Source: Psychrobacter sp. P11G3 (GTDB taxonomy: Bacteria; Pseudomonadota; Gammaproteobacteria; Pseudomonadales; Moraxellaceae). Taken from it: a stretch of DNA of 64,000 nucleotides. The translations under genes were made by a program, and so were the position numbers. The notes beneath the pieces were generated by a model. That model saw nothing but the letters and a program-made list of their open reading frames with translations. It ran no database searches and had not been told where the DNA came from. Location of the stretch: contig NZ_CM003596.1 of NCBI RefSeq assembly GCF_001435845.1, forward strand, positions 3,085,298-3,149,297, written 5' to 3'. Shown here one piece after another: positions 32,595 through 53,091 of this stretch; the stretch's first letter is position 1; each line of letters begins with the position of its first letter.

Positions 32595-34439
32595 ATGTGT
32601 GGAATTGTAGGCGCCGTTGCTGAGCGAAATATCGCTAATATCTTACTTGAAGGCCTAAAGCGTTTAGAATATCGCGGCTATGACTCAGCTGGCCTGACGG
32701 TTATTCGTGATGATGAACTACACCGTGAGCGCCAAGTGGGTAAAGTACAGGCACTGGTTAATGCCGTTGCTATCAACCCAGAGTTTTTTGATGGCCATAT
32801 CGGTATTGCTCATACGCGCTGGGCAACTCATGGTGAGCCAGCACAGCGTAATGCGCACCCACACGTATCAGGCAAAATTGCGGTCGTGCACAATGGTATC
32901 GTCGAAAACTACGCTGAGCTGAAAGAAGAGTTAATAGCCAAAGGCTACGTATTTACTTCACAGACAGATACTGAAGTTGTGGCGCATCTAATCCATGATA
33001 TCTACAAAAAGACACCTGACTTATTAGAAGCGGTCCGCACCATTATCCCGTTATTGCACGGTGCTTTTGCATTGGGTATCGTCCACGTAGATTGCCCTGA
33101 TGAGCTCATTACTGTACGTCTAGGCTCACCTTTAGTGATTGGTGTCGGTATCGGTGAGAACTTTATCGCATCAGATCAGTTGGCGTTGCTGCCGGTGACT
33201 AACCGCTTTATGTACCTAGAAGAAGGTGATATCGCCAAATTAACTCGTAATAACATTCAAGTTTATGCAGATGGTGTTGAAGTCCAACGTCAGATACATG
33301 AAATTGATGCAACCCAGCACAATGCCGATAAAGGCGAGTTCAAACATTATATGCTCAAAGAAATTTACGAGCAGCCAGATGCCGTCGCTCGTACGATAGA
33401 GATGGCTTTGGATAATGGTGAAACCACCAAACTACGCGACGATTTTTTACAGCGTCATGAGACACTGTTATCAGGTGTTCGTCATGTACAAGTCATTGCT
33501 TGTGGTACCAGTTATCACGCTGGTATGGTCGCAAAATACTGGTTTGAGAGCCTTATTCGTATACCTTGTTCCGTCGAGGTTGCCAGCGAATTCCGCTATC
33601 GCAATCCTGTCGTTGTCGATAATACTTTGGTCATCTGTATTTCTCAATCTGGTGAAACGGCCGACACCTTATCAGCGTTACGTGATATCCAGAAGCAAAC
33701 ACCAGCAGGCTTAGTCAGCTTGGCATTATGTAATGTACCGACGTCATCGCTGGTACGCGAAACAGACATTTTCTTGCCAACATTGGCAGGGCCTGAGATT
33801 GGCGTCGCCTCTACCAAAGCATTTACCACTCAGCTTGTGGCTTTGATACTATTGATATTAAAAGTTGGCGTCACGCAGCAGCGCATGACTGACGACCACT
33901 TAAATACGTTATTAAGTGAGTTACATCAATTACCAGGACAACTCTACGCCAGCTTAAACCTTGATGCTCCTATCAAGACCATGAGTGAAAGCTTTGAAGA
34001 TAAGAAAAGCTGTCTATTCTTAGGTCGCGGGTTACAGTTCCCGATTGCGCTAGAAGGAGCATTAAAGCTAAAAGAAATTTCTTACATTCATGCAGAAGGT
34101 TATGCGGCAGGTGAACTCAAACACGGTCCATTAGCATTGGTCGATAAAGACATGCCAATCGTCGTACTAGCGCCCAAAGACAGTATGTTTGATAAATTAA
34201 AAGCCAACATGCAAGAAGTGCATGCGCGTCATGGTGAGCTATTTGTATTTGCTAGCGAAGCCAGTCAAATGGTCGCGGAAGATAGACTGCACTTAGTATA
34301 TGTGCCCGATGTTTGCGAGACGCTTGCCCCTATCGTCTACAGCGTGCCTGTTCAGTTGTTGTCATACCATGTAGCAGTACTGCGTGGCACAGATGTCGAC
34401 CAGCCACGCAATTTGGCAAAATCAGTCACGGTAGAATAA
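32595..34439 (+). CDS. glmS: Glutamine--fructose-6-phosphate aminotransferase GlmS
   Basis: A 614-residue enzyme making glucosamine-6-phosphate from fructose-6-phosphate and glutamine. It begins MCGIVGAVAER with the nucleophilic Cys2 of the glutaminase domain; two SIS sugar-isomerase domains follow (CGTSYHAGMVAKYW; SQSGETADTLSAL; LGRGLQFPIALEGALKLKEISY). The C-terminus ends DQPRNLAKSVTVE, the conserved end whose DNA is the recognition site for TnsD. The Tn7 element lies 25 bases past the stop codon, so the coding sequence is intact but its terminator has been moved. Confidence 0.98.
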   Translation: MCGIVGAVAERNIANILLEGLKRLEYRGYDSAGLTVIRDDELHRERQVGKVQALVNAVAINPEFFDGHIGIAHTRWATHGEPAQRNAHPHVSGKIAVVHNGIVENYAELKEELIAKGYVFTSQTDTEVVAHLIHDIYKKTPDLLEAVRTIIPLLHGAFALGIVHVDCPDELITVRLGSPLVIGVGIGENFIASDQLALLPVTNRFMYLEEGDIAKLTRNNIQVYADGVEVQRQIHEIDATQHNADKGEFKHYMLKEIYEQPDAVARTIEMALDNGETTKLRDDFLQRHETLLSGVRHVQVIACGTSYHAGMVAKYWFESLIRIPCSVEVASEFRYRNPVVVDNTLVICISQSGETADTLSALRDIQKQTPAGLVSLALCNVPTSSLVRETDIFLPTLAGPEIGVASTKAFTTQLVALILLILKVGVTQQRMTDDHLNTLLSELHQLPGQLYASLNLDAPIKTMSESFEDKKSCLFLGRGLQFPIALEGALKLKEISYIHAEGYAAGELKHGPLALVDKDMPIVVLAPKDSMFDKLKANMQEVHARHGELFVFASEASQMVAEDRLHLVYVPDVCETLAPIVYSVPVQLLSYHVAVLRGTDVDQPRNLAKSVTVE

Positions 34440-34530: not shown

Positions 34531-34590
34531 TATTGTATGATGATTGATCCTTTGCTATCTTGTATTAACGAGATGGCAAAGGATTTTTTT

Positions 34591-35400
34591 GTGAATAACA
34601 GAAATAGAAAAGGATCTACAACAACTGAGTCTTCGAAAGATTATCAGCCATTTATCAAAGTAGCTGATATATCCTCACTTGGAAGATCTCATCGTGTCTT
34701 TGGCCATAAGACTAAACGAACACATCACCTACTCTCTGATCTTGAGCTTGCAGTATTTTTACTTTTCGAGTGGCAAAGTAGTACTGAGGATATACAAGAG
34801 CAGTTCCCTTTAGATATCAACATAACTAAGCAAATTGCTGATGATGTAGGAATTAAACATCCATCTCAAAAAGGTGAGCTTAAAATAATGACTACTGACT
34901 TTTACGTCATATCTAAAAACATTAACTCAGTAACGTCTCAATTAGCGCTCCAAGCTAAATATAGCAATCATTTAGATGATAATAGAACTATAGAAAAGTT
35001 AGAATTAGAGCGCAGATACTGGGAACAAAAAGATGTGGATTTCAAAATCATTACTGAAAAAGACATTCCTAGAGCTGTAACTGACAATATAAAATGGTTG
35101 TACCCCTCTAAGAATACTTATCTGATTACTATTGAAAAAAACGATTTCACTTTCTATTCAGAACAGATTATTGAAAGCCCTACTCTAAAAATCATAGATT
35201 TTTGTAAGAAAATTGACTCTTCTTACGACCACCCTCTTGGTACAGCATTAGGCAAACTAAAGAATTTAATAGCCCACGGTTATATCAGCTTTGATATACG
35301 AAAAGATTACCGAAAGATCGTTTGTGCTGAACTATCCATAGTAGATAAGGTTTATTCTAATTACATAGACAGGGAGCTCAAACATGCTTCGAATCAATGA
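34591..35400 (+). CDS. tnsA: Tn7 transposase subunit TnsA
   Basis: A 269-residue restriction-endonuclease-fold protein that cuts the 5' ends of Tn7 so that it moves by cut-and-paste. It matches Tn7 TnsA along its length (KDYQPFIKV, SHRVFGHKT, HHLLSDLELAVFL, KLELERRYW). The catalytic triad is present: Glu52, Asp103 (MTTDF) and Lys123 (LQAKY), spaced as in Tn7. The GTG start at 34,591 has AAAGGA seven bases upstream and gives about the Tn7 length (273). ATG codons at 34,537 and 34,573 are in frame, but the first falls within the likely promoter. It overlaps tnsB by 17 bases. Confidence 0.94.
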   Translation: MNNRNRKGSTTTESSKDYQPFIKVADISSLGRSHRVFGHKTKRTHHLLSDLELAVFLLFEWQSSTEDIQEQFPLDINITKQIADDVGIKHPSQKGELKIMTTDFYVISKNINSVTSQLALQAKYSNHLDDNRTIEKLELERRYWEQKDVDFKIITEKDIPRAVTDNIKWLYPSKNTYLITIEKNDFTFYSEQIIESPTLKIIDFCKKIDSSYDHPLGTALGKLKNLIAHGYISFDIRKDYRKIVCAELSIVDKVYSNYIDRELKHASNQ

Positions 35401-37477
35401 TGTTTATGACTATAAGCAAACGAAATTCAGGTTATTGAGTGAAATAATATCTGGATATATTTGGATTAATATTGATGACAAATCTGCCTTGCCAGAGTTT
35501 ATAGACCGATTAAGCTTGAATGTACTCATTGAAGAGGAGGCTTGTATACTGACCCAGGATCCTTATGAGAATTTACGTTTGACTAATGAACCTAGCGCCT
35601 CATCACGAGCAATTAAGCGAGATAATAATTATGCATTAATATCTCCCATAATATTAAACCCAGATCACTATGAGGCAAACGTTAGAGGCCCATTAATTAA
35701 TGATGTCTTAGCTCAAAATAAAACTACTAAACAAACTTTATATCGCTTACTAAGGAATTATTGGCAGAGAGGACAAACTCCTAATGCTCTACTGCCTGTG
35801 CGCACAAATAAGCGTAAAGATGGCAAAGAACGTCAAATAAAGAAGAAGCTTGGCCGACCTCGTATTTATAGCGATGGCAAAGGTATGATAATAACTGATG
35901 AAATTGCAAGGTTATTTAATTTAGTTATTAATCGTCATTTACTAAATCAGAGTAAGCATACGATAGGCTATGCATATCGTAAGTTTCAATCAATTTATCG
36001 TTCTAAATATCCTCAAATTGACGACACAGAAATCCCTACTATCTGGCAATTTAAATATCATTACGATACTAAGTTTAATACATTAGAAAAGCTCAGAAGC
36101 CGCACTAATAATAAGATATTTAATAAAGACATACGCCCGCTACACTCAACAGTAAATACGCATATTCTAGGCCCTGGTTCAAAGTATGAAATTGATGCAA
36201 CCATAGCTGACATTTATCTATTATCTGACTCTGATAGAGCTAGCATCGTTGGTAGACCAATTGTTTATTTGGTAGCAGATGTGTTTTCCAGAATGGTGGC
36301 AGGTTTTTATATAGGATTTGAAAACCCATCCTATGTAACAAGCGTACAAGCAATAAAAACAGCCGTCTGTGATAAAACAAGTATATGCAAAAAGTTTGGT
36401 ATAGATATTTCTTTAGAGGATTGGCCATGCATCGGCTTACCTGAATCGATACTTGCCGATAGAGGAGAGTTACTAAGCTCTCAAATTGAAACGCTTGAGA
36501 AGAGCTTTTCAGTAAGAATTGAAAATACGCCCGCTTATCGAGGTGATTTGAAGGGTATCGTTGAAAGATACTTCCATACTATTCAAGCAAAATTTAAACC
36601 TCATACGACCAAAATGGGAGTAGTACAGGGTATAAAAGAAGTACGAAAAGGTGGACACGACTATCGCATAGATGCCACTTTAACTATTACAGATTTTACT
36701 CAAATCATCATAAATTCAATAATTATACATAATAAGTCTCATCTATTAGCTAGCTATGATAGAGAGGCTGATATGCCTCCAGATATGCCGCTTATACCAA
36801 TTAAGATATGGAACTGGGGATTGCAAAATAGAACTGGTCAACTAAGAGCTGTCGATGCAGATAGCATTCATGTAGCCTTATTACCACGACATACAGCAAC
36901 TATCTCGAACTTAGGTATAAAGTTGTTTGGTGTTTACTATACATGCTCTGAGATAATGCAACATGGCTGGCTACATCGCAAAGGTACTATTAAAAGACCT
37001 AGATCTATTCAGGTAGGATATGATTTAATTGATGCCTCAAAAATTTATATTTTTTATGAGGATAATAGTCTTAATTACTGGATTGGAACACTTGCAGATC
37101 GCTCAAGGGAGTTCAAAAACTGTAGTTGGTGGGAGGTATGGCAGGTTCAAAAAATACAAAAAGTAGCTAATGCAAAACAAGAAATGAAAAGCAGAATTGC
37201 TTTAATAGACTTAGAAGATGAAATAAAGGCTATTCTAAAAGATTCTGAGATTAAAAAGAATAACAGTAATGAATCTAATCACTCCCGAATCTCAAAAATC
37301 AGAAGTAATCGAGATGTAGAAAAAGATTCAGAACGCCATCAACGGAGACAATTCCATCAAACAAATAAAAAATCTCATTTAAAAATAATGAAGAGTGAGT
37401 CTGAAAATGAACTGTCTGATGAAGAGCTTGCTCTAAGCAACCCGACTTATACATCGCTGTTATTTGAGGACGAATGA
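35384..37477 (+). CDS. tnsB: Tn7 transposase subunit TnsB (DDE)
   Basis: A 697-residue DDE transposase of the retroviral-integrase type that binds the transposon ends, cuts the 3' strands and joins them to target DNA. The catalytic residues are Asp271 (KYEIDATIAD), Asp359 (ILADRGE) and Glu394 (GIVERYF), each two positions before those of Tn7 TnsB (273, 361, 396). The N-terminal half (to about 250) carries the helix-turn-helix end-binding domains with NYWQRGQTPNALLP. The Lys/Ser-rich C-terminal tail ends SNPTYTSLLFEDE, the part that contacts TnsC in Tn7. It is one base before tnsC. Confidence 0.96.
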   Translation: MLRINDVYDYKQTKFRLLSEIISGYIWINIDDKSALPEFIDRLSLNVLIEEEACILTQDPYENLRLTNEPSASSRAIKRDNNYALISPIILNPDHYEANVRGPLINDVLAQNKTTKQTLYRLLRNYWQRGQTPNALLPVRTNKRKDGKERQIKKKLGRPRIYSDGKGMIITDEIARLFNLVINRHLLNQSKHTIGYAYRKFQSIYRSKYPQIDDTEIPTIWQFKYHYDTKFNTLEKLRSRTNNKIFNKDIRPLHSTVNTHILGPGSKYEIDATIADIYLLSDSDRASIVGRPIVYLVADVFSRMVAGFYIGFENPSYVTSVQAIKTAVCDKTSICKKFGIDISLEDWPCIGLPESILADRGELLSSQIETLEKSFSVRIENTPAYRGDLKGIVERYFHTIQAKFKPHTTKMGVVQGIKEVRKGGHDYRIDATLTITDFTQIIINSIIIHNKSHLLASYDREADMPPDMPLIPIKIWNWGLQNRTGQLRAVDADSIHVALLPRHTATISNLGIKLFGVYYTCSEIMQHGWLHRKGTIKRPRSIQVGYDLIDASKIYIFYEDNSLNYWIGTLADRSREFKNCSWWEVWQVQKIQKVANAKQEMKSRIALIDLEDEIKAILKDSEIKKNNSNESNHSRISKIRSNRDVEKDSERHQRRQFHQTNKKSHLKIMKSESENELSDEELALSNPTYTSLLFEDE

Positions 37478-37478
37478 T

Positions 37479-39155
37479 ATGATATCTGTAAACACTGTTG
37501 TGGCTGACTATAGAAAAACAGATATACCTAGATATAACGATAACCCATTCATTGAAGCACTACCTCCTATCGCTGAACCGAAAGCTGTTATTGAGACACT
37601 TAGAAGTCGTGTTGATATCTTATATTCAGATAAAAATGCAAGTCCTACTAGGAGAGCCCACTTACTCGTAGGACTGATGAATAATTTTTTTCAGCCAATT
37701 ATTCGACATATTCAATTAGAAAGCAAACTTTCCATTATGCTACGTGAAGGTTATGTGGGAAGGAATTTACATGGTGGTAACCTAGCTCAGTCTCTACAAG
37801 AAGGTTATAGAAGAGTTAAAGATGGTGAAGCAGACAGCTTTCAGTATGGTCCTCTAGAATCTACAGCTAGCAGCCTAGCTTTTATAGGTTGCTCAGGAAG
37901 TGGAAAAACTACCACAATCAGTCGTATTCTTAATACCTACCCCCAATGTATCTACCATACAAAACATAACTTCACTCAAATCGTATACTTAAAAATAGAT
38001 TGTCCACACGATGGTTCTCTAAAAAGTCTCTGCCTACATTTTTTTCGTGCTATTGATAAGGCATTGAGCACAAACTACGAAAAACGATATGGTCAAAAAA
38101 GGAACAGTATTGAAACACTAATGAGTTTAATGGGGCAGCTGGCGAACCATCATGCTATTGGCTTACTGATTATCGATGAAATCCAACATTTAAGTATTAG
38201 TAAATCTGGTGGTAGCGAGAAAATGTTGAATTTTTTTGTGACGCTAGTTAATACTATCAATCTACCAGTCGTTATGATCGGTACACCTAAAGCCCGTTTT
38301 ATATTTGATGAAGACTTTCGTTCTGCTAGACGTGGTGCTGGAATGGGTTCTGTATTTTGGGAACAAATGAAACAAGGAAGCTGTAAACATACCTCTCAGG
38401 AATGGCATTCATTTACAAATACGCTATGGAAATATCAATGGCTAAACCGGGCTGACACTGAGTTATCCAAGGAAATACGTGATGTATGGTATGAATTATC
38501 ACAAGGTATTTTAGACATTGTCGTAAAAATATTTGTATTAGCTCAATTTAGAGCAATAGAATCTGGCATTGAGAAAATTACAGTCAGAGTATTACAAACA
38601 ACCTATGAAGAAGACCTGAAACCGATTCATCCAATGATAAAAGCCCTACAGTCAGGGATCCCTGACCGTATCGCACAGTATTCAGATCTTGTCACTCCAG
38701 AAGTTGATCAAAAAATACTACAGTTCCAGCAGCGTATTAATGAAAAGTTAGATGATATAGACGATGAGACTATTTATCAGGGTGATGAATCAAGCATCAG
38801 ATTGCATCGTTTACTCAAGGATACAGGGTGTGATTCAGAGCTACTTCCTACTGTAGTAACACAAATCGTAGCAACACACCCTAATACTGAGACACTACAA
38901 CTCCTTGTCATGGCAGCTCAACAGTTAAAGGATTTACAGGCTAGTCCCTCAATACCAAATGGAAGCAATCACAGTAATATTATAAAAGCGCAAAAATCAA
39001 AACTTATCAGGAAAAATGATTGGCAAAAACTTGATAACAATGACCTTAGATTCCTATACAGCCAAAAGTCTGAATCACTACCATTTTATGACTACTTGAA
39101 GAGTAATCATAAAACGGTAGTCTTCGACTTTAATAAATGGTTAGAAGCTATCTAA
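37479..39155 (+). CDS. tnsC: Tn7 target regulator TnsC (AAA+ ATPase)
   Basis: A 558-residue AAA+ ATPase linking the target selector (TnsD or TnsE) to the TnsAB transposase and enforcing target immunity. Walker A is GCSGSGKTT (residues 137-145) and Walker B LLIIDE (229-234). The length agrees with Tn7 TnsC (555). The ATG at 37,479 with GAGGA eight bases upstream is preferred over an in-frame TTG at 37,464. tnsD starts one base after its stop codon. Confidence 0.95.
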   Translation: MISVNTVVADYRKTDIPRYNDNPFIEALPPIAEPKAVIETLRSRVDILYSDKNASPTRRAHLLVGLMNNFFQPIIRHIQLESKLSIMLREGYVGRNLHGGNLAQSLQEGYRRVKDGEADSFQYGPLESTASSLAFIGCSGSGKTTTISRILNTYPQCIYHTKHNFTQIVYLKIDCPHDGSLKSLCLHFFRAIDKALSTNYEKRYGQKRNSIETLMSLMGQLANHHAIGLLIIDEIQHLSISKSGGSEKMLNFFVTLVNTINLPVVMIGTPKARFIFDEDFRSARRGAGMGSVFWEQMKQGSCKHTSQEWHSFTNTLWKYQWLNRADTELSKEIRDVWYELSQGILDIVVKIFVLAQFRAIESGIEKITVRVLQTTYEEDLKPIHPMIKALQSGIPDRIAQYSDLVTPEVDQKILQFQQRINEKLDDIDDETIYQGDESSIRLHRLLKDTGCDSELLPTVVTQIVATHPNTETLQLLVMAAQQLKDLQASPSIPNGSNHSNIIKAQKSKLIRKNDWQKLDNNDLRFLYSQKSESLPFYDYLKSNHKTVVFDFNKWLEAI

Positions 39156-39156
39156 A

Positions 39157-40716
39157 ATGCTTAACTTTCCCATGCTGTATAAAAATGAACTGATCTATAG
39201 TGTCATTGCTAGAGCTGGTGTCAGAGCTGGCATTACGAGCCCAAAACAGCTACTTGATGAGGTTTTTGATAATCGAAAAGTCATTGCCACAATTGATTTA
39301 CCTAACCAGGTATCCTCTATCGTAAAGTTATATCGTAGCCATCAATACAAAATAGAAACCTTAATCTATAGCCATACCCTATTTCCTATTTATGCATCAT
39401 TTATTCCTGAAGGTAGACGTAGACAGTGCTTAGCATGGATGAAAGAAGAGTCACGCGGTTCCGTACATCTAGCAGTAGGACTAAACGCTTCCAGCGTACC
39501 CACACCTAAAAAAGTGCGCTATTGCCCCTCTTGTTTTAAAAAACAGCTAGAAGTTTTAGGTGAGTGTTACTGGTCAAGACTGTGGCAAATACAGGGAGTG
39601 AATTGCTGCCTTAAACATGGCACTCTAATTGAGTCTGAGCTTGATTTTCGTCCTAGTGCACGACATTCATATGTTTCAGCCAATTTTGAAGATAATGCTG
39701 CTATCGTTCAAACCAATGCATCCGAAACAGATATTTTTGTCACCCATAAAGCCCTAGAGTTGTTAACCTTACCGCCTTTACCATCTCCTAGCTATGAACA
39801 ATGGTCTCTGTTTTACAAAAACTTAGCCTTGTCGGCCAATTGTAATAGAGGCTCGGGACATATCGACTTTGATAGTATCGTAAATAAGTTGTTAGATAGA
39901 TGGAGTATCAGTAATCTACATCAATTCAACTTGCATGATTTAGATGCAGATAATAGCTGGTTACGTTCAATATTTCGTAAACACAGAAAAAGCTTCAGCT
40001 ACCTTCAGCATCTTATTGTCATTGAAGCATTTATTGACCGGAACTGGTATTTTAAAGAGATTATTTCGCACGTAAGTGCGCTAAGTATAAAAAAAGAAGA
40101 TGAATCACTAAAATCTAGCGAAAAGCCTGCTTCAAATGTACAACTTAAGCGCGACCAATGGCAAAACCTATTAGTAGCGTGTCAGAAAAGCATCAAGCAA
40201 GCTCGGCAAAAAGATGGTGGGTTATATGCTTGGCTCTACCGTCATGATAAATCATGGCTACTTTCTTACAACAGGTCCCATCATAGTAAACATATTGAAA
40301 ATGGTATAAAGCACGATTGGCCCAAACGAGATAGATTGTACGTAAGGCAGCTAATAAACATTAAAAACACCCTAATATGGAATCTAGATAGCCCTAGAAG
40401 ATCAAGCAACTGGTGGTTACATCAAGCCAAAACCTCTTCGACAGTTGAGAAGAACTTGGACAAACTGCCTTTGATATCTAGCTTTCTCTCTAAATATAGT
40501 GAGAGTGTAAGCGATTATCAAATTAGGCGACTAACTCGGGTATATATATCTAGAATCTCTAGCGGTGAGTCACTATCAGACTGGATAATACTACGCAAAG
40601 CTGGATTAAGTGAGCAAAGACTCACTGCAGAGGCTAGCCGTTTTCACAGATCCATAGGTCGTTTAATTGAAATAGAAAATTGGAACTTTAAACATGGAAA
40701 TAACAGTCTTACCTAA
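39157..40716 (+). CDS. tnsD: Tn7 target selector TnsD (TniQ family)
   Basis: A 519-residue TniQ-family DNA-binding protein that recognises the 3' end of glmS and directs insertion just downstream. It begins FPMLYKNELIYSVIARAGV like Tn7 TnsD. The zinc finger is CPSC (near residue 126) followed by C-x2-H in NCCLKHGT. KSIFRKHRKSFSYLQH-type and DYQIRRLTR blocks are conserved. The element sits at the attTn7 site, as expected for an active TnsD. Its 3' end overlaps tnsE by 23 bases. Confidence 0.95.
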   Translation: MLNFPMLYKNELIYSVIARAGVRAGITSPKQLLDEVFDNRKVIATIDLPNQVSSIVKLYRSHQYKIETLIYSHTLFPIYASFIPEGRRRQCLAWMKEESRGSVHLAVGLNASSVPTPKKVRYCPSCFKKQLEVLGECYWSRLWQIQGVNCCLKHGTLIESELDFRPSARHSYVSANFEDNAAIVQTNASETDIFVTHKALELLTLPPLPSPSYEQWSLFYKNLALSANCNRGSGHIDFDSIVNKLLDRWSISNLHQFNLHDLDADNSWLRSIFRKHRKSFSYLQHLIVIEAFIDRNWYFKEIISHVSALSIKKEDESLKSSEKPASNVQLKRDQWQNLLVACQKSIKQARQKDGGLYAWLYRHDKSWLLSYNRSHHSKHIENGIKHDWPKRDRLYVRQLINIKNTLIWNLDSPRRSSNWWLHQAKTSSTVEKNLDKLPLISSFLSKYSESVSDYQIRRLTRVYISRISSGESLSDWIILRKAGLSEQRLTAEASRFHRSIGRLIEIENWNFKHGNNSLT

Positions 40717-42286
40717 TGATGCATATTTGACCAACATAGGCTCCTTATCTAGGAAATCAGGATATGACAGCTGGCTAATAACTGTAAATTATAGTAATGG
40801 CAAAGGTGAAAACGACTGGAAAGGCATAAAATTTAGCAATGCGCCTGCTCTATGTCGCGGCAGAATTTACTCAAATGACTATTATGATGGCAGTAAAAAA
40901 GGTCCTGTTTTTGAGTTTACTATTGACGATCTGGAAGACTGGTTTGATTTTGAGTACTTCCATGCTAAATATTTTGAATCCCCTACTTCGGTTACATTAA
41001 GCTCAGTAGGCGCTCGAAATATTTCAGCGGTATGCCATATCCCAAAATTTGAATTAGCCAGAGTTCTGTTTTTTTATAATGCATACTTAGCAACATCTGG
41101 ACTTCAAGAGAGAGCCTTACATCTCGATTTCAATACTAGTTTTATTGATGGGAAACACATTATAGAGGTACTGCCACATTGTCCACTTACCCAAAAAGAT
41201 TTTAAAGATGATGTACTGAGAAGTCATTTAGCTTGGTTACTACTAAATAATGAGATGCGCCAAAGCTATGACAGTATCTATAAGCACCTAATACGAGAAA
41301 CCACACATAATAGTGACTACGAAAACTGGATTTTTAATTTCACACCACCACCGCTTAAAAACATTAAGATTAAAGCACGATTTTATAAGAATCAGAATGG
41401 TGTTTATCGAGTTGATGAAATTCTATCTATCAGCAACCTAATCTCTAATATTGACTTTGATGTACACTTCATAGGAGAGCACTTTGTAGACAATAAACAA
41501 TCTATCAATCCATTGGCTACTGAAGTGGCGGTTAAACCTCAAAATAGCGACAACTCACATACTATTGATGATGCCAGTGAGGCTGATATTGATAGAAGCA
41601 AACAAACTATAGATACAAATCAAGTCGCCTTACAGTTTCAAGACCCTATTAAAACAAGCCTCGATTATAAAAAAATCAGGTCAAGAAAAGGTCCTAAACT
41701 AGCAGATGAGGAAGATATTGATGGCGAACCCAAGACAAACTTTGTGGCGACTGACGACGCAACTGTATTTGGCAACGTTGCACAAGGTGACTATCAGAAT
41801 ATCCAAAAAAACCCTGACCAGACTATCAATAACGCAAAAAGCTTTAAAGCAATTACTGAACTTTTAGAACGTTTTACAGCTGAGTATGATACTGATCTTT
41901 TCCGACAGTTTCATAAGCTTCCTAAAGTGAAGTACTGTCGTAGGCACATAACTGAAGATGGGCTTCCACGTAATATGATGGAAGCTAGGTTTGAATATGA
42001 TAACCAACTATTCTCAGTTTTTGAGGTATATACTAAAGATATTAAAAAACGCTTATCAACGCTAATCGTTAAGGTTGACAGCTACAATCAACTTGAACGC
42101 AAAATGCAGAGGTTTATGACGAGTATAGTCAAAGGCTCAATCTCTTGGACAGATGCGGCACTGCTATTGGGTGATTACAAAACGCTTAATCATCCTACTG
42201 GCTTTTATGAAAAAGAATGCGATGAAAGAATGCTACAAAAATGGCTCAACGGTCTGGAAAAAGAAGTGATTTCATTGGTTTCTTAG
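40694..42286 (+). CDS. tnsE: Tn7 target selector TnsE
   Basis: A 530-residue protein matching Tn7 TnsE (538 residues), which directs transposition into replicating DNA such as conjugal plasmids by binding the sliding clamp and 3'-recessed ends. Shared blocks are IGSLSRKSGYDSWLITV at the N-terminus, HIPKFELARVLFFYNAYL (about 111-128), the FTPPPLKNIKIKARF stretch, and the C-terminal domain from about residue 395 (LPKVKYCRRHITEDGLPRN; NHPTGFYE). The middle (270-390) is acidic and variable. The presence of tnsE suggests that the element can also spread by plasmids. Confidence 0.9.
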   Translation: MEITVLPNDAYLTNIGSLSRKSGYDSWLITVNYSNGKGENDWKGIKFSNAPALCRGRIYSNDYYDGSKKGPVFEFTIDDLEDWFDFEYFHAKYFESPTSVTLSSVGARNISAVCHIPKFELARVLFFYNAYLATSGLQERALHLDFNTSFIDGKHIIEVLPHCPLTQKDFKDDVLRSHLAWLLLNNEMRQSYDSIYKHLIRETTHNSDYENWIFNFTPPPLKNIKIKARFYKNQNGVYRVDEILSISNLISNIDFDVHFIGEHFVDNKQSINPLATEVAVKPQNSDNSHTIDDASEADIDRSKQTIDTNQVALQFQDPIKTSLDYKKIRSRKGPKLADEEDIDGEPKTNFVATDDATVFGNVAQGDYQNIQKNPDQTINNAKSFKAITELLERFTAEYDTDLFRQFHKLPKVKYCRRHITEDGLPRNMMEARFEYDNQLFSVFEVYTKDIKKRLSTLIVKVDSYNQLERKMQRFMTSIVKGSISWTDAALLLGDYKTLNHPTGFYEKECDERMLQKWLNGLEKEVISLVS

Positions 42287-48496: not shown

Positions 48497-48934
48497 ATGC
48501 TAAGTACAACAAAATCACTAGCAATTATCTTTGTAGGTCTGATGCTCGGTCAAACAGCTAATGCTAAAGCAATGACATCTCAAGAGATATTAAAGCTAAA
48601 GGACGTAATCATTTATGAAGAGCCCGTAACCGAAACAGAGAAAACGACTGATTGGTATGCCACTCCTATCTCAGTTATGGCTGAGAATGCAAAAACCAGA
48701 AGACCTGAAGCTATATTCTTTTTTGTAGAATCTACTGGTTACTATGGTGCATTTGCCAACCATGTCCAAATCAACTGCCTCAACCCTTCAGAGTCTTTTG
48801 TCAAAATAGATAATAACAAAAATATAAGTCTAAAAACCTCAATGGCTTTTGAAGAAAATCCTTATGATAAGAATTTCGAATATCGTATGGACAGAAAAGC
48901 AGTTGAAGGAATTTTTGCCAAGTTCTGTAAATAG
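48497..48934 (+). CDS. Small secreted protein of unknown function
   Basis: A 145-residue protein with a signal peptide (MLSTTKSLAIIFVGLMLGQT, cut near ANA-KA) and a mature part of about 122 residues with two Cys (in INCLNP and the final FCK) that could form a disulphide. GGGGAA precedes the ATG. I recognise no family. It lies between the restriction operon and the DRT2 module, divergent from hsdR, and reads toward the ncRNA. A link to defence is only suggested by position. Confidence 0.65.
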   Translation: MLSTTKSLAIIFVGLMLGQTANAKAMTSQEILKLKDVIIYEEPVTETEKTTDWYATPISVMAENAKTRRPEAIFFFVESTGYYGAFANHVQINCLNPSESFVKIDNNKNISLKTSMAFEENPYDKNFEYRMDRKAVEGIFAKFCK

Positions 48935-49041
48935 GGTTTGAAGGCTAGCACTGTAATTAGATTGATATCTACTTCCACACAATAGACTTCGTATTATATT
49001 CAATGCTGCAATAATACAAATATTCTGAAACCAGATTTTAA

Positions 49042-49069
49042 TTGACAAAATTACAGATTTAGATAGAAT
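49042..49069 (+). promoter_or_regulatory. Promoter of the DRT2 ncRNA
   Basis: TTGACA (49,042-49,047), a 16-base spacer and TAGAAT (49,064-49,069). Transcription is expected to begin near 49,075-49,077, just at the base of the first hairpin, about 290 bases upstream of the reverse transcriptase. Confidence 0.8.
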
Positions 49070-49075
49070 CATAGA

Positions 49076-49350
49076 GCATTTAGGATTTTGTCTAAATGGA
49101 AGCTTGTGTCAACCATTGGACTCCAGTATCAATTAATCCTGATAGTACTATCAGTATCAATTGAGCCTGTCCATGATCTTTATTTAGATACTGTAAGACA
49201 GTATTTATGATGATTAGTGTTAGCATAGCACGACTCCTTCGATATGTTAGACTGCGCCACGAGGAGGGATATCTTTTGATATTCGTATGACTTTGGAGGG
49301 GTACTTCATAAGAAGTAAAAGATTGCAGTCATCTGACCCTCCTAAGTTGG
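49076..49350 (+). ncRNA. Candidate DRT2 template RNA, structured and pseudoknotted
   Basis: No plus-strand gene fits this gap, yet it is rich in structure. Hairpins: 49,077-49,098 (CATTTAG/CTAAATG); 49,188-49,204 (ATACTGT/ACAGTAT); 49,234-49,266 (CTCCTTCG with CGAGGAG, one bulge); 49,268-49,283 (GATATC-TTTT-GATATT); 49,290-49,347 (ACTTTGGAGGG with CCCTCCTAAGT, one mismatch), which encloses TACTTC-ATAA-GAAGTA (49,302-49,317). GACTGC in the loop of the third stem (49,250-49,255) can pair with GCAGTC (49,325-49,330) in the last, a pseudoknot. Known DRT2 systems use an upstream pseudoknotted RNA as template. The ends are approximate; the 3' end may simply run into the reverse transcriptase mRNA. 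Confidence 0.78.
49107..49247 (-). other. neo: Predicted DRT2 cDNA repeat carrying a 'neo' endless reading frame
   Basis: The complement of the RNA is stop-free in one frame from 49,328 down to 49,095. UGU triplets at 49,107-49,109 and 49,245-49,247 are 138 nt (46 codons) apart. If cDNA ending in ACA re-pairs with the second UGU, each repeat joins to the next in frame. The joint makes TTGACA (49,107-49,112), a 17-base spacer, and extended -10 TGC-TATGCT (49,222-49,230). GAAGGAG (49,234-49,240) lies seven bases before ATG (49,224-49,226) in the same frame. The unit starts MLTLIIINTVLQYLNKDHG and is mostly helical/hydrophobic. The jump point is inferred, not observed. Confidence 0.6.
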
Positions 49351-49362
49351 CAAGGACATACA

Positions 49363-50694
49363 ATGATAGAGCTTGATCAGAATTTCTTTAAGCAAAGACA
49401 AAAAAACCGAAACTATCTACACTTCGACGAAAAACCCTCCTATACTTTTCTCTATGAATATGTCACTCAACCTTCGAACATAGAACAACACTCATTTTAT
49501 CCTTTTATTTCGTACAACATAGTTGACGAAAAAATCAGAAAATCAAATAAAAAAATTGTTATTTCACCCAAAGATAGGCTGATTAACTATCCAAGCCATG
49601 TCGATAGTAGTATCTACGCTTATTACTCTAAATCCTTAGAAATCCCTTATGAGTCTTATTTATCAGAAAATTCACTCACAGATACTGTTTTAGCATTTAG
49701 AAAAATTGAGAAGACTATCAATGGTAATAGAGTATCTCAGTGCAATATACATTTTAGCAAGAACGTCTTTGACTATATTACTCAGAAAAAAGATTGCTTA
49801 GTTCTTTGTTATGACATAACAAAGTTTTTTGATAATCTCGATCATCGCATTCTGAAAGACAACTGGATTCGCTTGTTAGACACTAGTGGCTTACCAAAGG
49901 ATCACTATAAAATATACAGGTCTTTGACAAGATTTGCTTCAGTGGATAAGAAAGGGCTATATAAAGAGCTAGGTTTATCACTACATTCTAGAACTCTAAA
50001 TAAACGGCTGGATAGACTGTGTTCTGTCAAAGACTTCCGAGAAAAAATCAGAAAAAATGGTCTAGTAACAACTAATAAAAGTGGCAAAGGCATTCCCCAA
50101 GGCTCACCTATGAGTGGCTTGCTATCTAATATCTATATGATGGATTTCGATGAAGCAGTAAGTAAGTACCTAGCAGAAATAGACGGCAAATATTTTAGGT
50201 ACTGTGATGACATGATCTTCGTTTTTGATAAAAGCCGTAAGTTGGAAGTAGAAAGTCTAGTCAAAGCTGAAATCAGTAAATTAAGACTTCCAATAAATAA
50301 TAAAAAGACTCAGCAAATAGAGTTTAAAAACGGAATTTCAAATTTCAATTCAAGGAGTATTAGTTATAGCAATCCTTGTAAGCTCCAGTATTTAGGGTTG
50401 TTATTTGACGGTGAGAACATTTACTTAAGAGAGACTGGTCTATCTAGATATAATCGTAAGCTAAGAAAAGCCATCAGAATGAGAACCTCCCATTACCAAA
50501 GACTAGAACCTAGTCAGCGTAATGGGAACAGTATGTATATGCGAAAGCTTCATACTAGATTTACTTATATTGGTAAAAGAAACTATATTGGTTATGTTTT
50601 CCGGGTTGCGAATGTGCATGGCTCTAATAATGTTAAGAGACAAGTGAAAGGACATTATAGGCTTTTTAATGAATATTTAGCTAAGAAGGCATAA
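49363..50694 (+). CDS. drt2: DRT2-type antiviral reverse transcriptase
   Basis: A 443-residue reverse transcriptase. Visible motifs are the first catalytic Asp151 in CYDITKFFDNLDH, IPQGSPMSGLLSN (244-256) and the YCDD box (280-283), then the NNKKT and LQYLGLLFDG blocks. There is no maturase, endonuclease or extra effector domain, and no msr/msd retron pattern. Size, YCDD, single-gene layout and a structured RNA of about 290 nt directly upstream fit DRT2 (UG2), in which the RNA is copied by rolling-circle jumping into a concatemeric gene after phage infection. AAGGA precedes the ATG. Alternatives are another DRT class; a group II intron is unlikely. Confidence 0.82.
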   Translation: MIELDQNFFKQRQKNRNYLHFDEKPSYTFLYEYVTQPSNIEQHSFYPFISYNIVDEKIRKSNKKIVISPKDRLINYPSHVDSSIYAYYSKSLEIPYESYLSENSLTDTVLAFRKIEKTINGNRVSQCNIHFSKNVFDYITQKKDCLVLCYDITKFFDNLDHRILKDNWIRLLDTSGLPKDHYKIYRSLTRFASVDKKGLYKELGLSLHSRTLNKRLDRLCSVKDFREKIRKNGLVTTNKSGKGIPQGSPMSGLLSNIYMMDFDEAVSKYLAEIDGKYFRYCDDMIFVFDKSRKLEVESLVKAEISKLRLPINNKKTQQIEFKNGISNFNSRSISYSNPCKLQYLGLLFDGENIYLRETGLSRYNRKLRKAIRMRTSHYQRLEPSQRNGNSMYMRKLHTRFTYIGKRNYIGYVFRVANVHGSNNVKRQVKGHYRLFNEYLAKKA

Positions 50695-50736: not shown

Positions 50737-52092
50737 CTATACATTACTGCTCTCAAGGTAATCAATCTCTTCGATCAATTGCGACTTAATCTCTTCAAAG
50801 TATGCATTCCAATTGTTAATAGCGCTTATTTTTTGATAATCATCACTATCCTTGATCGCAAAAAGCTCTTGTTCAACCTTTTCAATCTTATGTTTGAGTA
50901 TCTGAATGATGACTTTAAGCTGATCAGCTTTACTTACGGTTTCTGAGCGAGGTTTGAACATACCTTGCTTTAGCTCTGATAAAATCCTTTTTACCTCAGC
51001 TAAGTCGTTTTTTCTGTAAGCTTCGTTAAGCTGAATGAATAATTCTTCAGCAATACCTTTCATCTCCTCATTAACGCGGTCTGGATGGCATATTTGACTG
51101 GCTTGACGATATGCCTTCTTCAAATCAGTACGCTCATCATTATTTAACTCATAGATAGTTTTTTCTAACTCAGTTTTAATGTGCTTGTTATAGTCTTGCT
51201 CATCCTGCACAGCTTCTGCATACTCTTGAGGATTATCTTTAGTGGATATTTTTCGTAGATATAGTAACTGTTTAATAAAGCTTCCAAGCTCACTGGTATG
51301 CTTGTGATGAAATTCTGAGAGTAACTGTTCCAACTCTATTTTTTCATTGTCATAGGCATTGAGTTGGTGCTCGAGCTGGCGAATCTCGAGTTTTAAAGCA
51401 CTAACGTCAATATCGTTATATATGACTAAGGCATGATGGTTTTTGATGAACTGATCAATAAGAGTTATTGCGGTCTCAAAGCTATGCTGCTGCAAAGCTT
51501 GGGTAATATCAGCAATATCTTGTTGAAAAGCATATGTCTTTAGCTTGGTGTTTTCGCGGGTGATATCTTCTACGCCTTCTAGGATAACGTAATTTTTAAT
51601 AATCTCGAGACGCTTAATGATTTTATCGAGAGGCAGCTCTGGCGTGGAATCTTGATGATCAAAGTAGGTATTGCGAATTTTCTTAAATTGCTTGATGAAC
51701 TGCTCAGCTAAGACACTATCGCCTTTAGTAATCAGGATATTCTCGTGATTCTTCTCAGCTTTGTAGCTCCAGTTATAAGAGCCATTGATCACGGTGTCAT
51801 TATCAATGATACAAAACTTATTATGCATCAAACCTTGCTTACCATCACCAATGAGGTAGGCAGCTGAGTGACCAATATTTAACAGACTATAATCAACATA
51901 GCTCTGCTGGTTAATATGATCGTTGGATAGCATCAACTGAACGGTAACACCCTTTCGTGCTTTCTCAACAAGCGTGTTAAATAAGGTCCGATTGGTAAAC
52001 CAAGCAACAGCAATATAGATGCTGTGCTTTGCTTGCTCAAGCTCAAGGCCAATACGGTCTGCGATATCTTCAAATAGGGCTTCGGTTTGCAC
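50737..52092 (-). CDS. PLD-family nuclease fused to a J domain
   Basis: A 451-residue protein in three parts. Residues 1-145 are a phospholipase-D-type domain with one HxK motif (His90, Lys92, Asp97 in MHNKFCIID) and GSYNWS at 104-109; such single-motif proteins act as dimers, often as nucleases. Residues 230-320 are a predicted coiled coil. Residues 320-375 resemble a J domain with LKKAYRQASQICHPDRV, HPD at 336-338, which would recruit a DnaK-type chaperone. The last 60 residues are again coiled coil. The start is GTG with AGGTAGG upstream. It follows the LRR gene by 66 bases on the same strand. A role in defence is inferred from its place in the island. Confidence 0.75.
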   Translation of the reverse strand: MQTEALFEDIADRIGLELEQAKHSIYIAVAWFTNRTLFNTLVEKARKGVTVQLMLSNDHINQQSYVDYSLLNIGHSAAYLIGDGKQGLMHNKFCIIDNDTVINGSYNWSYKAEKNHENILITKGDSVLAEQFIKQFKKIRNTYFDHQDSTPELPLDKIIKRLEIIKNYVILEGVEDITRENTKLKTYAFQQDIADITQALQQHSFETAITLIDQFIKNHHALVIYNDIDVSALKLEIRQLEHQLNAYDNEKIELEQLLSEFHHKHTSELGSFIKQLLYLRKISTKDNPQEYAEAVQDEQDYNKHIKTELEKTIYELNNDERTDLKKAYRQASQICHPDRVNEEMKGIAEELFIQLNEAYRKNDLAEVKRILSELKQGMFKPRSETVSKADQLKVIIQILKHKIEKVEQELFAIKDSDDYQKISAINNWNAYFEEIKSQLIEEIDYLESSNV

Positions 52093-52158: not shown

Positions 52159-53091
52159 TTAGCCCCATGGTGCATTCCATATAGTATTTAAATCAGTGAT
52201 CTGTTCAAGGCCTTTAGGTAACTCTCTAAAATCATTACCATCAATATTGAGGTAAGTTAAGTTATTGAGTTGACCAATCCACTCCGGCAGTTCGGTAAGT
52301 CCACAGTCACTAATATCAAGATAAATTAAGTTGTTGAGTTGACCAATCCACTCTGGCAGTTCAACAATCCTAATGAATCTAATATTCAGATGAGTTAATT
52401 TAGTAAGTTTACTAATATTTTTTGGAAATTCGGTAATTTCAGTACAACTGATATCGAGGTGAGTTAAATTGGTAAGCTGACCAATACTTTCTGGTAGTTC
52501 AGTAATTTCATTGTTATTGATATGAAGATGAGTTAAGTTGGTAAGTTGGCCAATCCACTCTGGCATTTCGGTAAGCATACATTCATTAACATCGAGGTAA
52601 GTTAATTTAGTGAGTTGGCTAATCCAGTCTGGTAGTTTTTGAAGTTGGTTATGATAAATATCAAGATGAGTTAAGTTAGTAAGCTGACCAATACTACTTG
52701 GTAATAATATATCAAGACATTGTCCTCCAATATTAAGCTTAGTTAAATTGGTAAGTCGACCAATACTATCTGGTAAGTCCCAAATATCCCAACTTCCACT
52801 ATCCTCAGTAGGAAGGCTAGTTAATGCCATTAGAGCATCTTGATTACGGGGTATTATATTTTCATTAATTTCAAACCTATCTGCCCAATCCCAGATTTCT
52901 TGCATCCAACCACAATCAACTTCTAATTGGTTAGCCTTGCGCACGGCGATTGCTGAACTAATAATAGAGTCTGTCAATGCTAATAAGCTACCTTTACCTT
53001 TTATAGTGAGGGATTGGCGATTATCAACAGATTTTATGAGAGATTGAGACTCTACTTTGTTTTGATTAGCATTATTATAGTTTGGAGGCAT
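52159..53091 (-). CDS. Leucine-rich-repeat protein
   Basis: A 310-residue protein with no signal peptide. Residues 1-95 are a unique N-terminal region (polar, with a WMQEIWDWADRFEINENIIP stretch); from about 100 to 305 eight to nine leucine-rich repeats of 23 residues follow, of the form LTNLTHLDIS-x-x-x-ITELPESIGQ. Such solenoids bind other proteins. The DNA repeats are imperfect, so it is a protein repeat, not a recent tandem array. It lies upstream of the PLD-J gene on the same strand, and the two may act as sensor and effector, which is speculation. Confidence 0.85.
   Translation of the reverse strand: MPPNYNNANQNKVESQSLIKSVDNRQSLTIKGKGSLLALTDSIISSAIAVRKANQLEVDCGWMQEIWDWADRFEINENIIPRNQDALMALTSLPTEDSGSWDIWDLPDSIGRLTNLTKLNIGGQCLDILLPSSIGQLTNLTHLDIYHNQLQKLPDWISQLTKLTYLDVNECMLTEMPEWIGQLTNLTHLHINNNEITELPESIGQLTNLTHLDISCTEITEFPKNISKLTKLTHLNIRFIRIVELPEWIGQLNNLIYLDISDCGLTELPEWIGQLNNLTYLNIDGNDFRELPKGLEQITDLNTIWNAPWG

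Follow-up and report, generated by a model that had tools for sequence, protein, structure and literature searches.

The DRT2 system of Klebsiella is described as a reverse transcriptase (RT) that jumps on the template of a non-coding RNA (ncRNA) and thereby yields a concatemeric cDNA encoding the protein Neo, the template being flanked on both sides by ACA motifs (Wilkinson et al. 2024, PMC12039810; Tang et al. 2024, PMC11100668). The Klebsiella ncRNA is given there as 280 nt long, and the repeat unit as 111–129 nt in 42 close homologues (PMC12039810). Neo frames are reported in most relatives of the Klebsiella system, five homologues having been tested, and the ACA motifs together with the junction promoter are reported to be strongly conserved, while Neo is said to be harder to annotate in the more divergent DRT2 clades, for which other mechanisms are possibly implied (Tang et al. 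2024, PMC11100668). Telomerase RNA and DRT10 are similar in that a template with an alignment repeat lets the product re-anneal, as these sources have it (PMC12039810, PMC12632851), the difference being that what is repeated here, instead of a short sequence, would be a 138-nt gene.

The locus considered here lies within a stretch of 64,000 nucleotides of Psychrobacter sp. P11G3 DNA, the whole of which is referred to as the window. It is very probable that the DRT2 of the window copies an ncRNA template into joined 138-nt repeats, which would create a promoter and an endless neo gene that are both absent from the genome. The way of building the gene is most likely the one already known from Klebsiella, with a jump signal and a start-site layout that differ. 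A separate clade would thus retain the gene-building trick despite another jump repeat and another arrangement of the start site; exact predicted junctions, predicted proteins and a testable two-junction requirement follow, and a rule suggests itself for seeking genes that genomes do not contain as such: tandem joining at a short repeat, a promoter with 17-nt spacing and a length divisible by three. The literature search returned no paper treating DRT2 together with Psychrobacter, and a search on DRT2, the neo gene and Moraxellaceae gave none with Moraxellaceae and no title about this clade among the matches listed; the supplementary trees of the founding papers may already hold it.

The Reverse Transcriptase and Its Relatives

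The RT gene (49363..50694, plus strand) encodes a protein of 443 aa with a YCDD motif, and its assignment to DRT2 comes from NCBIfam, from PADLOC and from its best solved relatives. The curated equivalog model NF041746 (Drt2) gives 485 bits, its cutoff being 390, and PADLOC calls the protein Drt2, which bears out the expectation of an earlier note on this DNA that the RT would belong to DRT2. The closest solved structures are chains of the Klebsiella DRT2, 40% identical over residues 14–439, and the catalytic YxDD motif, FRYCDDM in the translation, aligns with YRYCDDM of the Klebsiella enzyme.

In an RT tree of 27 rows (L004, L008–L013, L016 and L024–L026 being omitted) the window sits in a clade of 10 rows with a support of 98/96, and the clade containing Klebsiella, likewise of 10 rows, has a support of 98/95; the window RT thus falls outside the Klebsiella-type (ACA) DRT2 subclade, the two forming separate clades. 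Judging by the tree, the window clade is probably the sister of the Klebsiella one, a status that is probable and unsettled because the node uniting the two has a support of only 88/67. Ten loci were compared. Clade A comprises the window, L001 (RT 91% identical), L027 (77%, on a Psychrobacter plasmid), L014 (53%) and L032 (56%), and clade B comprises L015, L033, L034, L035 and L036, whose RTs are about 41–43% identical to that of the window. The clade count excludes L012 (the window itself), L013 (the same match as L001), and L016 and L026. The latter two are one contig, on which a 60% identical DRT2 RT is split into two pieces ~1.3 kb apart and which does not include the upstream region. The RT of L033 in clade B (L033:1498-2784) contains an in-frame TAA, yet the joined neo frame of that locus remains open.

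Matches at 1e-75 were found in 11 of the 299 genomes searched at the family level and matches at 1e-70 in 4 of the 105 searched at the genus level, the window's own genome being counted in both. Among viral contigs there were seven pattern matches, none of which encoded a relative, and the phage records searched gave five distant matches, none of them taken into the analysis. The clade of the window RT, as found here, would represent a Moraxellaceae DRT2 antiphage system, a defence role being suggested by analogy.

The Predicted Non-Coding RNA

The fold, covarying stems and a promoter-like site predict that a structured ncRNA is encoded immediately before the RT. The fold of 49040–49362 is 4.8 standard deviations better than that of shuffles (z −4.8). 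The predicted ncRNA of ~277 nt (49076..49352, plus strand) has its putative start placed near 49076 because of the predicted promoter TTGACA-16-TAGAAT and the 5′ hairpin, and its putative end at 49352 because of the conserved AAGUUGGCA element. The −35 of this promoter (TTGACA, 49042..49047, plus strand) and its −10 (TAGAAT, 49064..49069, plus strand), separated by a 16-nt spacer, together give 11 of 12 matches; TTGACA is kept in L001, L027 and L014 (the aligned stretch of L032 stops short of it), and TAAACT stands at the place of the −10 in L001 and L027.

Covariation points to a 5′ handle hairpin of eight pairs (49077..49098, plus strand), four of which are retained through two-sided changes, with 85% of the cells paired; this hairpin occupies the place of the 5′ handle described for the Klebsiella ncRNA. 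The template, which begins at about base 32 of the ncRNA (base 29 in Klebsiella, where it runs to base 148 and the primer corresponds to bases 142–146, according to PMC12039810), appears to be closed by a 5-bp SL2-like stem (49106..49110 with 49241..49245, plus strand) that pairs across five sequences, 24 of the 25 cells being paired and one pair switching from C-G to A-U. Positional analogy with the Klebsiella primer would give the ncRNA a 5-nt DNA extension copied from 49238–49242. The 3′ scaffold (49248..49352, plus strand) is marked by conservation together with paired stems. RNAalifold additionally paired UGUCAAC at the 5′ end of the template with GUUGGCA at its 3′ end, and this pairing, being without a two-sided change, was set aside. 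An Rfam search of the ncRNA gave no credible family, the sole match being mir-7918, whose 19.4 bits fall short of the gathering score (80).

The Proposed Joined Repeat Unit

The arrangement described in the earlier note was recovered from the sequence in each of its parts. One frame of the minus strand is without stops from 49,328 to 49,095, and two TGT triplets starting at 49107 and 49245 lie 138 nt, i.e., 46 codons, apart: UGU-1 (49107..49109, plus strand), at the 5′ end of the template, is the proposed jump-off, and UGU-2 (49245..49247, plus strand), just 3′ of the template, is the proposed landing site, both being present in all five clade A loci. The template or repeat unit between them (49107..49244, minus strand) carries the endless neo frame of 46 codons, YRRSRAMLTLIIINTVLQYLNKDHGQAQLILIVLSGLIDTGVQWLT. 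As had been claimed, TTGACA (49107..49112, minus strand, read from 49112 to 49107), the −35 of the junction promoter, lies genomically downstream of its −10, TATGCT (49222..49227, minus strand, read from 49227 to 49222), and end-to-end joining at the TGT sets the former 17 nt before the latter, a spacing that exists only once the unit is joined, with TG (49230–49229) one base before the −10. The ribosome-binding site GAAGGAG (49234..49240, minus strand, read from 49240 to 49234) lies within the promoter spacer and seven bases before the neo start codon ATG (49224..49226, minus strand, read from 49226 to 49224), which itself falls inside the −10 hexamer, a point absent from the earlier note. 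The remaining frames do all carry stops (0/9/2 on the cDNA strand and 7/2/3 on the RNA strand per joined unit). In the genome, the junction TTGACA has a weak partner, CAAAAT, at 16 nt; the two match at 10 of 12 positions and point outward from the template. Inside the template there is also an inverted repeat (49124–49169) with two 23-nt arms that are 83% complementary; it is largely kept in L001 and L027, and the same stretch supplies some of the codons in the predicted Neo repeat's second half.

How special this junction is was assessed by a scan for exact repeats of at least 3 nt with a separation of 84–179 nt; it covered 372 nt, the last of them just within the RT gene. No other of the 325 repeat pairs of the window reaches the promoter score of the UGU pair (11.5; the next seven listed all score 10.5). 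The longest match, taken alone as the rule for picking the junction, fails, as the match at the UGU junction spans only 3 bases in the window, and 5 in L001 and L027. A chance arrangement in an AT-rich ncRNA, spotted after the fact, might draw on the 95 candidate units of a length divisible by three, in 42 of which a frame is open. Against it stands a dinucleotide shuffle of the 300 nt preceding the RT, repeated 1000 times, in which four shuffles equalled the window's score with an open frame and one did so with a Shine–Dalgarno sequence (SD) and an ATG as well, and so does the recurrence of the pattern in relatives whose RTs are about 41–56% identical; chance therefore seems extremely improbable. 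The same shuffle test gave 3/1000 for L027, 1/1000 for L015 and 27/1000 for L014, where the best junction differed from the homologous one, and shuffling the 138-nt unit left a given frame open in 1.4% and any frame in 6.5% of cases. The comparative evidence, the recurrence of this joined-unit construction in nine relatives, is stronger than these chance tests.

That the start codon should sit within the −10 is unusual in a gene so close to its promoter and tells against this reading. Transcription begins downstream of the −10, so the start codon beside the promoter would be missing from the message; the first SD-ATG would be met one repeat further on, and Neo would therefore need at least two junctions. 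Weak alternative starts are TTG with GGAG at +110 in the window and L001 and, in L014, an ATG at +122 that has no more than TAAG.

Comparison with Klebsiella DRT2

The locus resembles the Klebsiella system as published in the RT family, in an upstream ncRNA of ~280 nt with a 5′ hairpin, in a template that can be joined in tandem, and in a junction-made promoter at 17 nt, a stop-free frame and a unit divisible by three. It departs from it in an RT that is 40% identical and of another clade, in a unit of 138 nt where Klebsiella has 120 (138–153 nt over the ten loci versus 111–129 nt in the 42 homologues; PMC12039810), in having a UGU repeat and no ACA pair, and in placing the SD in the spacer and the ATG in the −10, whereas the ribosome-binding site and start of the Klebsiella gene are described as lying downstream of the −10 (PMC12039810). 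Because the ncRNA of the window contains one ACA in all (49198), the published ACA pair is unavailable to it, and an ACA jump was rejected; across the ten loci, no ACA-flanked open-frame unit exceeded 8 of 12 promoter matches. The Klebsiella-like mechanism proposed in the earlier note is supported, with qualifications: the DRT2 RT, the frame, the promoter and the length rule in homologues agree with it, but the RT itself lies outside the Klebsiella subclade, the jump repeat would be UGU instead of ACA, and the ATG picked in the note falls inside the −10, where a transcript from that junction could not use it.

The proposed jump repeat in clade A is UGU, extended to AUGU or longer in L001, L027, L014 and L032, and in clade B it is AUCU in L015, L035 and L036, AUC in L034 and AUU in L033. 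On the Klebsiella side the scan yields varied repeats, namely ACA in L028, L031 and L017, CAA in L002, L003 and L004, AGAT in L029 and TGT in L018, and therefore the jump motif may not be fixed there either; in all eight of these loci a single open frame came out of the same scan, together with a junction promoter of the form TTGACA-17-TATAAT. A start codon with an SD stands at +25 after the −10 in 8 of the 10 Klebsiella-side loci (L002, L003 and L004 being near-identical), L030 has a spacer of 16 nt and starts with TTG at +17, and in L019 no junction fitting the rule was found in the scan. A broader proposition, for which the chances seem evenly balanced, is that in the Moraxellaceae DRT2 clade the position of the neo start in the junction promoter would make a single-junction transcript untranslatable, so that Neo would be made only at two or more junctions as a kind of built-in repeat count, and that a jump on UGU or AUC/AUU, not ACA, would show the need to be for a short match beside the closing stem and not for a fixed sequence.

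Recurrence across Ten Moraxellaceae Loci

At the chosen junctions, the joined units measure 138, 138, 138, 141 and 144 nt in clade A and 150, 153, 153, 147 and 141 nt in clade B, exactly one cDNA-strand frame and no RNA-strand frame is open in each of the ten loci, and every joined unit has a 17-nt-spaced junction promoter and an SD-ATG, with the start codon placed from −4 to +1 relative to the −10, which it overlaps or abuts, and its SD in the promoter spacer (10/10). The earlier note had called for homologous ncRNAs to be compared for the open frame, the −35/−10 pair and a length that is a multiple of three, and all three are kept in those examined. The choice of junction made use of the open frame, the length divisible by three and the promoter score, and not of the SD or ATG; by score, no other open junction equals or beats the chosen one in the window, L001, L027, L015, L033 and L035, whereas the chosen one ties in L014 and in L036 (one of two in each) and in L032 (one of at least five), and it ranks second in L034, homology having decided in these latter four. 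Because such a rule by itself selects for open frames, for multiples of three and for good promoters, tests that are free of it weigh more, among them the like placement of SD and ATG in all ten, and the ten loci do not amount to ten independent confirmations, both because they are related and because features of the rule entered the junction choice.

At the same spacing, joining raises the number of matches in the −35 (out of six) in every locus: from 4 to 6 in the window, from 3 to 6 in L001 and L027, from 4 to 5 in L014 and from 3 to 5 in L032 in clade A, and from 3 to 6 in L015 and L036, from 3 to 4 in L035, from 2 to 4 in L034 and from 1 to 4 in L033 in clade B. The smallest argument comes from L035, and the joined −35 of L033, L034 and L035 (4/6) is no better than the unjoined one of the window and L014 (4/6). 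These figures bear on a genome-encoded antisense peptide, small, hydrophobic and type I toxin-like (ATG at 49226 to a stop at 49094, 44 residues), that would require no joining at all: its ORF is present unjoined, has its own SD and is hydrophobic (unit GRAVY 0.47), and the unjoined −35 still matches at 4/6 in the window and L014. The range of 1–4/6 unjoined versus 4–6/6 joined, higher on joining in each of the ten loci, provides the main argument against it, however, and further ones are the multiple-of-three gaps throughout the template and the stop-free junction, for which such a peptide provides no purpose, and the description of the equivalent place in the Klebsiella ncRNA as the cDNA template (PMC12039810). 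It was rejected as the main reading on the joined versus unjoined −35 matches, the promoter score having been part of the junction choice, and seems very improbable.

In the whole-region alignments, all seven distinct gap sites within the template, the limits of which were those of the chosen junctions, are of 3 or 6 nt, and of the 11 gap sites outside it eight are never a multiple of three, two are mixed and one is of 9 nt. Substitutions were compared by codon position and by pN/pS. Between the window and L027, 28 of the 138 sites differ (codon positions 7/5/16), with a pN/pS of 0.42 in the neo frame and of 0.91 and 2.81 in the two remaining cDNA-strand frames; the values for L001 and L027 are 6/5/13 and 0.32 (0.73 and 2.09 in the others). 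For L035 and L036 the pN/pS is 0.43 in the neo frame (others 0.68 and 1.45), with the third-position excess absent (6/4/6), and the window and L001 differ at only eight sites. A frame of the RNA strand likewise has low values (0.51, 0.59 and 0.43 in the three clade A pairs). The Neo units are hydrophobic on average, with GRAVY values of 0.28 to 1.03 over the ten loci, and the identity to the window unit is 89% in L001, 67% in L027 and 33% in L014.

The substitutions are likewise of interest for a reading in which tandem cDNA is made with other or heterogeneous junctions and the DNA product acts instead of Neo, in the manner of DRT9, whose cDNA is itself reported to be toxic (PMC12632851). A jump microhomology of only 3 nt in the window and the lack of an ACA would suit such a product, and the preference of clade A substitutions for third codon positions and the coincidence of frame, promoter and start site at the chosen junction in ten loci would not, which leaves this reading very improbable. 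In the distant L021–L023, which the distant-relative junction scan took in (L005–L007 being left out), no clear junction stands out, the best scores being 11.5 in L021 and 10.5 and 10 in the others.

The Proposed Mechanism

The RT family, the RNA elements, the repeat rule, the frame and the promoter geometry, as well as the conservation of these, are established by the present analysis. In the preferred reading, copying into joined repeats that encode Neo, the RT would bind the ~277-nt ncRNA encoded just upstream of it and copy the template from 49244 to 49107, after which the ACA at the 3′ end of the cDNA (the copy of UGU-1) would shift to UGU-2 (49245–49247) and prime the next round, for many rounds. 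The resulting tandem cDNA would set TTGACA 17 nt before TATGCT, and because of this a strong promoter would exist only in the concatemer, which second-strand synthesis would render transcribable. The mRNA would then contain a frame free of stops, with 46 residues to each repeat and GAAGGAG-ATG as its start; a transcript from one junction would be translated first from the next repeat, at least two junctions being required, and the hydrophobic repeat protein (Neo) would arrest the infected cell. Analogy with the published mechanism is what suggests the tandem cDNA and its jump, the second strand, transcription, translation, the toxicity of Neo and the role in defence.

Genomic Setting

The system is carried by a Tn7-like transposon of ~20.7 kb (34465–55124) that lies downstream of a GlmS-type gene (32595–34439) and has both of its ends, the tips being TGTCATTGAGTA and TGTCACCGAGTA (10/12), with a 5-bp duplication, CCTGA, at both sides and three 20-bp repeats at the tns end. 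The tns genes (34537–42286) comprise tnsA, C, D and E as recognised by Pfam, and tnsB as recognised by a Mu-transposase C-terminal domain together with its position. DRT2 and a type I restriction system make up the cargo. Between hsdR and the ncRNA there is an ORF of 145 aa (48497–48934), the start of which looks like a signal peptide by eye and for which PADLOC, Pfam and NCBIfam gave no family. On the other side, the RT has two minus-strand neighbours, a PLD-like protein (50737–52092; a DrmC-like PADLOC hit) whose DnaJ match stays below the cutoff and a leucine-rich-repeat protein (52159–53091), and it is possible that both of these are further defence cargo.
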